A program made the translations under genes and the position numbers. 64,000 nt of DNA from Terriglobia bacterium. Lineage in GTDB: Bacteria > Acidobacteriota > Terriglobia > Terriglobales > Acidobacteriaceae. A model generated the notes under the pieces. That model saw only the letters and a list, made by a program, of their open reading frames with translations. It was not told where the DNA came from and made no database searches. Position 1 is the first letter of the stretch; each line of letters begins with the position of its first letter. The stretch covers positions 496,001 to 560,000 of the forward strand of contig JAIQGK010000012.1 of the NCBI GenBank assembly GCA_020072645.1. Direction: 5' to 3'. Below are positions 43,738-44,196 of the stretch, in pieces.

Positions 43738-44196
43738 ATGGAAGTTAATGATAAAGCCCCGGAGTTCTCTCTTGCCAATGAAGATGGCAAGCCAACCGCA
43801 TTAAAAGATTATCGCGGCAAGCACGTGGTGCTCTTTTTTTATCCCAAGGCCAACACGCCAGGTTGAACGATAGAGGCGTGCGGGTTCCGCGACGCATTCA
43901 CCAAGATGCAAAAAGCAGGGGCAGTGGTGCTGGGCATTTCCGCCGACAAACCCTCTGCCCAGAAGAAATTTAAAGAGAAATACGACCTGCCTTATTCGCT
44001 GCTGGCGGATGAAGACAAGGCTGTCTGCAACAAGTACGGCGTAATGAAAGAGAAGAGCATGTACGGCAAGAAGTACATGGGAATCGAGCGGACGACCTTT
44101 GTGATCAGCCCGGAAGGCAAAATTTCAGCCGTGCTGACGGGATTGAAGCCGGACGAGCATGCGGCGGCAGCGATGGCGGCGCTGAAAGGGAAGTAG
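43738..44196 (+). CDS. bcp: Bcp/PrxQ peroxiredoxin, probable selenoprotein (TGA at the peroxidatic position)
   Basis: 152 residues if the in-frame TGA at 43864-43866 is read as selenocysteine (residue 43). Start ATG 43738: MEVNDKAPEFSLANEDGKP, VVLFFYPKANTPG-U-TIEACGFRDAF, VVLGISADKPSAQKKFKEKY, LPYSLLADEDKAVCNKYGV, GIERTTFVISPEGKI. In Bcp the residue after TPG is the peroxidatic cysteine; the resolving Cys48 (U-x4-C) is intact. PrxQ enzymes reduce hydroperoxides using thioredoxin. The coding sequence is otherwise undamaged on both sides of the TGA, which argues against a pseudogene. A SECIS-like hairpin follows. Sec genes (selA, selB, selC, selD) are not in the window. A plain ORF search reports only bases 43906 onward. 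Confidence 0.85.
43864..43895 (+). promoter_or_regulatory. Selenocysteine UGA with bacterial SECIS-like hairpin
   Basis: The UGA is followed, 9 bases on, by GCGU (43876-43879) and GCG (43880-43882), loop GGUUC (43883-43887), CGC (43888-43890), a bulged G, and ACGC (43892-43895). A small loop with G in its first two positions about 16 bases after UGA is the form of bacterial SECIS elements that bind SelB. Confidence 0.65.

Follow-up and report, generated by a model that had tools for sequence, protein, structure and literature searches.

A probable selenocysteine-containing Bcp/PrxQ peroxiredoxin gene with an in-frame UGA and a downstream hairpin in a bacterium of the Terriglobia

PrxU is a peroxiredoxin with selenocysteine (Sec) at the peroxidatic site, and its NCBIfam model (NF040737) is presumably linked to Eubacterium acidaminophilum. 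The first-pass annotation of the DNA studied here had stated that Sec forms of peroxiredoxins exist, in agreement with the family list of a 2022 review, where Prx, COG1225 (Bcp), with the motif TxxU is given as a prokaryotic selenoprotein family (PMC9312934). Sec-containing Prx (PF00578) is also listed in PMC13188914; Table 1 of PMC1794560 gives it 12 members, and a table of 2016 counts 91 Prx selenoproteins from 78 organisms (PMC5029168). In the available text of the 2006 survey the Acidobacteria are credited with four selenoproteins in three families (PMC1794560), and in an excerpt of PMC12013277 the acidobacterium Occallatibacter riparius with three known selenoprotein genes; the gene described below could be among these acidobacterial selenoproteins. 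A search of titles and abstract openings in the open-licence literature on selenoproteins in Acidobacteria or peroxiredoxins gave no paper on this acidobacterial enzyme, a result that says little. The gene is very probably a genuine selenoprotein gene, and its novelty is lower because Sec peroxiredoxins have already been catalogued.

Reading frame and protein family

The window, that is, the whole stretch of DNA that was analysed, comprises 64,000 nt of Terriglobia bacterium GCA_020072645.1 (contig JAIQGK010000012.1, positions 496,001–560,000 of the forward strand). The gene occupies positions 43738–44196 (+) and encodes 152 residues from ATG to TAG through one UGA at codon 43 (43864–43866, +), the single interruption of the frame, in the context TPG-U-TIEAC; the frame, the TGA with its context and the TAG are as the first-pass annotation had described them. 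The same annotation had placed the TGA at the peroxidatic Cys of Bcp/PrxQ proteins, with the resolving Cys five residues further on. From the Bcp/PrxQ literature we take codon 43 to be the peroxidatic and codon 48 (43879–43881, +) the resolving position; the alignment agrees with this, and codon 48 is Cys.

The Pfam AhpC-TSA (PF00578) match runs across the TGA (145 bits, E 1.3e-42), and the sequence PKANTPGU follows the pattern P-x-x-x-T-x-x-U, so that an AhpC-TSA/Bcp domain with T-x-x-U is present. Among the 14 NCBIfam models matched, the general Bcp model (PRK09437, thioredoxin-dependent thiol peroxidase) was the only one over its cut-off (162.2 bits, cut-off 140), and no selenoprotein-type model of the 14 was; the protein scored 48.3 bits with the PrxU model NF040737 (cut-off 270) and 29.7 bits with the thiol peroxidase Prx-SUH model NF045827 (cut-off 298). 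The nearest solved chains were 5enu (AhpC/TSA) and 5iph and 3gkk (bacterioferritin comigratory protein). All 453 plasmid records matching the peroxiredoxin were less than 60% identical to it.

The sole conventional ORF of at least 60 aa in the frame of the gene starts at 43906 and has 96 aa. The first-pass annotation had foreseen this start correctly, and the loss amounts to 56 residues rather than the 43 that it gave. Conventional annotation would describe a peroxiredoxin that is truncated or broken, leaving the genome seemingly without its only close Bcp; the second-best of nine matches in this genome is 32% identical. That the UGA is a true stop, with a short peptide and a fragment started at the ATG present at 43906 as products, is scarcely credible: the fragment would be devoid of the active-site loop, the Pfam and NCBIfam matches continue across the UGA, and the hairpin downstream of it would be left without a role.

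When the window was scanned for read-through TGAs by codon preference, this gene ranked second; the top candidate, at 32325 (minus), was rejected, its TGA being read, from the translation alone, as the end of one gene beside the start of another. Directly downstream of the peroxiredoxin, at 44256–45040 (+), a DUF433 gene overlaps a DUF5615-KTSC gene, a pairing frequent in toxin-antitoxin-like modules.

Codon 43 among homologues and the selenocysteine machinery

Codon 43 was read in 170 homologous loci, a set that leaves out three reverse-strand paralogues and is not free of dependence among its members (the proteins of L021 and L123 are identical), and was TGC in 75, TGA in 59 and TGT in 36, with nothing else found. 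The first-pass annotation had proposed an alignment of close homologues for Cys or Sec at this codon and had named random decay around the site as contrary evidence; the codon alternates between TGA and TGC/TGT (111 loci), and no random decay was seen at the site. A search of genome contigs gave at least 567 relatives; of the 80 best, which were kept, 5 had TGA and 75 TGC or TGT. When 150 genomes were sampled from the family of the window, 148 gave a match at E 1e-25, and the best listed match per genome had TGA in 54 and an open frame in 89, the latter group including some weaker matches, possibly paralogues; in the 7 unclassed genomes a match was either lacking or too weak for listing. The DNA of every one of the 54 TGA genomes was taken, together with that of 36 open-frame genomes out of 89, and all 36 had TGC or TGT. 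No further internal stop was present in 53 of the 54 TGA matches (that of G145 also has TAG), and the alignment of nearly all the TGA relatives in this sample starts at residue 1 or 2. Of 297 genomes sampled across the phylum, 91 gave a match at E 1e-40, and TGA was present in 8 of these 91: 6 among the 31 that belong to the family of the window, and 2 among 60 others, both in one family. By these counts the Sec form is concentrated in the window's family, yet it is found beyond it.

The Sec machinery, for which the first-pass annotation had recommended a search, was found complete in the genome of the window (6.44 Mb in 42 contigs, 99.1% complete). One tRNA-Sec gene over the cut-off (73.9 bits, UCA anticodon), SelB with its wing domain, SelA (550 bits) and SelD (240 bits) were identified, so that selA, selB, selC and selD all pass the family cut-offs. 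SelD itself carries a UGA, in KAAG-U-ASK, which we take to be its usual Sec site. Within the family sample, tRNA-Sec was detected in 47 and SelB over cut-off in 51 of the 54 TGA genomes, and at least one of them in all 54; the corresponding numbers for the 89 other genomes were 31, 31 and 36 (Fisher p 1.8e-15 for either component, relatedness not corrected). The TGA genomes without a tRNA-Sec match (7) or without SelB over cut-off (3), none of which missed both, may be explained by incomplete draft assemblies or by the stricter filtering applied in the large search.

Decoding of the UGA as a residue other than Sec, for example as Cys by a tRNA-Sec-like tRNA-Cys, is a further explanation. According to PMC7609411, several phyla contain selC-like tRNA-Cys, some with UCA anticodons, and Acidobacteria are among the bacteria with allo-tRNAs. 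In the present sample, 3 of 81 genomes with tRNA-Sec matches have a second match. Against this, the genome of the window has a single tRNA-Sec over the cut-off together with SelA and SelD, SelA would be useless in a Cys-only recoding, and SelD has its own UGA in KAAG-U-ASK; we consider such decoding very unlikely. The second tRNA-Sec-like genes of G106 (L193) and G072 (L194) were read as tRNA-Sec(UCA); that of G063 (L195) is called tRNA-Ile(UAU) by ARAGORN, yet scores 58 bits as tRNA-Sec, and is possibly an allo-tRNA.

Further genes of the same genome have TGA at the apparent active-site Cys, namely peroxiredoxins with FTPG-U-TAEM and WSPT-U-TNEM, a ResA-like protein with WASW-U-GC (295 bits, slightly below the WAxxUGC_long cut-off of 300) and a redoxin with YW-U-PFC. 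The FTPG-U-TAEM peroxiredoxin (L011, G000:C7:148943-149314, minus) has an N-terminal extension resembling a signal sequence. The WSPT-U-TNEM peroxiredoxin (L012/L207, G000:C12:82768-83253, minus) forms with its relatives L208–L216 a second TGA peroxiredoxin family, matched in 38 of 60 family genomes (E 1e-20); the best match had one TGA in 29 of these 38, and the TGA was located at the active-site motif in all ten loci fetched.

The hairpin downstream of the UGA

A hairpin of eight base pairs with one bulged base, GCGUGCGGGUUCCGCGACGC, lies within the coding sequence at 43876–43895 (+). Its apical loop GUU (43884–43886, +), the presumed contact of SelB, is 17 nt from the UGA, and its energy is −10.0 kcal/mol. 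The first-pass annotation had proposed a hairpin with the geometry of a bacterial SECIS at these positions; its base is 9 nt after the UGA and not 16, which is the distance to GGUUC. In the bSECIS model, as given in PMC13188914, the loop has 3–9 nt, with G within its first two positions, and lies 16–37 nt from the UGA, the stem has 4–16 bp, and the minimum free energy is at most −7.5 kcal/mol. The window hairpin falls within all of these limits, as do the elements of 52 of the 59 TGA homologues, compared with 2 of the 36 Cys homologues of the family (own script); the median energy of the 20-nt element was −10.0 kcal/mol in the Sec and −3.5 kcal/mol in the Cys forms.

Folded as a single sequence, the 61 nt at 43855–43915 gave a structure no better than that of shuffled sequences (z −0.80), and the case for the hairpin therefore rests on the comparison of TGA with Cys homologues. 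An Rfam search of 43800–44000 gave no family match, only two chance matches (E 6.8 and 9). RNAalifold recovered three apical pairs only from 54 Sec sequences, which we ascribe to a shift in the register of the outer stem between sub-groups, and a different structure of four pairs from 35 Cys sequences. The lower-stem pairs 14–31 and 15–30 were present in 43 and 46 of the 54 distinct Sec sequences and in 9 of the 35 Cys sequences each, and column 17 pairs with column 27 (43 sequences) or column 28 (11 sequences) in every Sec sequence, which corresponds to a shift of the bulge. Paired cells made up 88.7% in the Sec set, above all 500 shuffles, and 73.9% in the Cys set, a value reached by 171 of 500 shuffles. 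Strict covariation was weak: both sides changed in 10 cells of two pairs, a number of pairs reached by 206 of 500 shuffles, and a control with the partner slid by three columns gave 9 such cells, or 17 for the alternative register.

Codon choice for the same residue also differed between the two forms. The strongest synonymous shifts were at the hairpin codons 47 (Ala as GCG in 43 of 53 Sec and 4 of 36 Cys genes), 49 (Gly as GGG, 45 of 48 and 3 of 25) and 52 (Asp as GAC, 47 of 51 and 15 of 36), with smaller ones at 50 and 53 and no Sec/Cys difference at the hairpin codons 48 and 51. The test covered 29 codons from 34 to 63 with multiple testing not corrected; outside the hairpin, Asp39 (p 7e-4), Gly42 (see below), Glu46 (p 0.004) and Lys59 (p 0.04) differed too, and the remaining codons tested in this range showed no difference at p 0.05. 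We regard selection on the hairpin as established by these sequence comparisons.

Immediately 5′ of the UGA, Gly42 (43861–43863) is encoded by GGT in 34 of 54 Sec and 2 of 36 Cys genes (p 1.4e-8), a shift that may reflect selection on the UGA context.

GTT at +17 was found in 56 of the 59 Sec homologues and also in 11 of the 36 family Cys homologues, in 8 of them by way of a Glu codon, and is not diagnostic on its own. Among the 2051 TGA triplets of the window, GTT at +17 follows 19, and GTT together with two closing pairs follows 3, this gene included.

The same loop was met in another selenoprotein-type gene. In the YWUPFC gene of the window's genome, as in that of two further species from the same genus, the hairpin is CCUCG-AGUUA-CGAGG, with GUU also 17 nt after the UGA; in two species of another genus, one of whose matches also has an internal TAG, it is CUCCG-AGUUA-CGGAG, two stem pairs being changed on both sides with the loop kept. 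In a sixth genome (G135) the best match was only 40% identical, and a CGAGUUCG hairpin was seen by eye farther downstream. SelD of the window's genome has no GUU at +17, and its SECIS may, as judged by eye, use a GUC loop; single-sequence folds of the FTPGU and WSPTU peroxiredoxins of this genome gave no GUU hairpin of this kind.

Seven of the 59 TGA homologues fall outside the bSECIS constraints. Four of these (L157, L159, L160 and L163) keep GUU, and their failure may be due to a weaker, A-U-containing stem. The other three (L118, L149 and L150) belong to three species of a single genus; they retain both UGA and reading frame and have CUU for GUU and no model SECIS, and their genomes contain tRNA-Sec and SelB, with AGUU-loop hairpins in their YWUPFC-type genes. 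Their SelB may tolerate the altered element, decoding of the gene may be inefficient, or a different element may serve instead. These three homologues, and the 96-aa fragment that is all a conventional ORF caller sees, are what could be expected from a pseudogene or a sequencing or assembly error, with the TGA as a recent nonsense mutation or a misread TGC or TGT. Such an origin is nevertheless extremely improbable, given that 59 of 170 loci share the TGA at this codon, that the hairpin is retained where TGA is present and not in the Cys copies, and that the genome has no other close Bcp.

On the sequence evidence, the gene almost certainly encodes a Bcp/PrxQ-type peroxiredoxin with Sec as the peroxidatic residue, inserted via SelB and the hairpin. 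The use of Sec by this acidobacterium, as suggested in the first-pass annotation, is thus supported by the machinery, the TGA/Cys exchange and the SECIS comparison. SelB carrying Sec-tRNA-Sec would bind the hairpin just 3′ of the UGA and would make the ribosome insert Sec rather than terminate. If the enzyme works like Bcp/PrxQ and other Sec peroxiredoxins, hydroperoxides would be reduced by the Sec43 selenolate, and the selenenic acid would be resolved by Cys48 and then thioredoxin or, in relatives without Cys48, directly by an external thiol.

Residue 48, apparent reversion and comparison with known systems

Codon 48 lies in the SECIS stem. Its residue was Cys in 39, Ser in 13 and Arg in 7 of the 59 Sec forms, Cys being thus absent in 20, and Cys in 109 of the 111 Cys forms. 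On one reading of these residue counts, Sec may make the resolving thiol unnecessary; as to loss of Cys48 following Sec on independent branches, three usable pairs gave no significance. RNA selection may also contribute to the change at residue 48, because its codon is part of the stem.

A quick maximum-likelihood tree was built from 112 proteins after masking of residues 43 and 48. The best tree requires 10 Sec/Cys changes, only 3 of them forced by well-supported branches, compared with an average of 37.7 for shuffled labels. The root and many forks are unsure, and the direction of change was therefore deduced from two Cys genes that retain the SECIS. One of them, L165 (Cys43, Ser48, with the hairpin intact), is one of the two Cys forms without Cys48; it is identical to its TGA neighbour L144 across the 20-nt element and agrees with it in 137 of 141 bases over codons 44–90. 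The other, L180, agrees with L135 in 19 of 20 bases of the element and in 114 of 141 over the same codons. Both genomes (G139 and G028, respectively) contain tRNA-Sec and SelB, and from their sequences L165 and L180 look like Sec-to-Cys revertants that still bear the hairpin. Remnant SECIS elements in Cys forms have been described before, the examples in the available part of PMC1794560 being FdhA and a HesB-like protein.

A tentative and somewhat doubtful scenario would join these observations: gain of Sec would free Cys48, a two-thiol enzyme would drift towards a single selenolate, residue 48 becoming Ser or Arg in part through selection for RNA pairing, and a later reversion to Cys43 that does not bring back Cys48, as in L165, would leave a one-Cys enzyme with a fossil SECIS. 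With Sec and Cys forms interleaved on the tree and two apparent reversions with SECIS, the family is a natural experiment, which permits tests of why Sec stays or goes and of whether it relieves the need for a resolving thiol.

Of the systems described so far, the Sec-containing Prx (COG1225 Bcp, TxxU) is alike in being of the Bcp type with Sec at the peroxidatic position in T-x-x-U. The form described here differs in its spread through one acidobacterial family, in the frequent absence of the resolving Cys in the Sec relatives, and in the apparent Sec-to-Cys reversions, Table 1 of PMC1794560 giving no such event for Prx. PrxU (NF040737) belongs to another peroxiredoxin class, to judge by the score far under its cut-off. 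Bcp/PrxQ (PRK09437) is the same family over almost the entire length, above the curated cut-off, and the window protein differs from it in having, as predicted, Sec for Cys43. Finally, the hairpin resembles the bSECIS consensus in its stem, its energy, its spacing of 17 nt and the length of its loop, which begins with G followed by U, and is distinguished by spanning the presumed resolving Cys codon and by having no Rfam family match.
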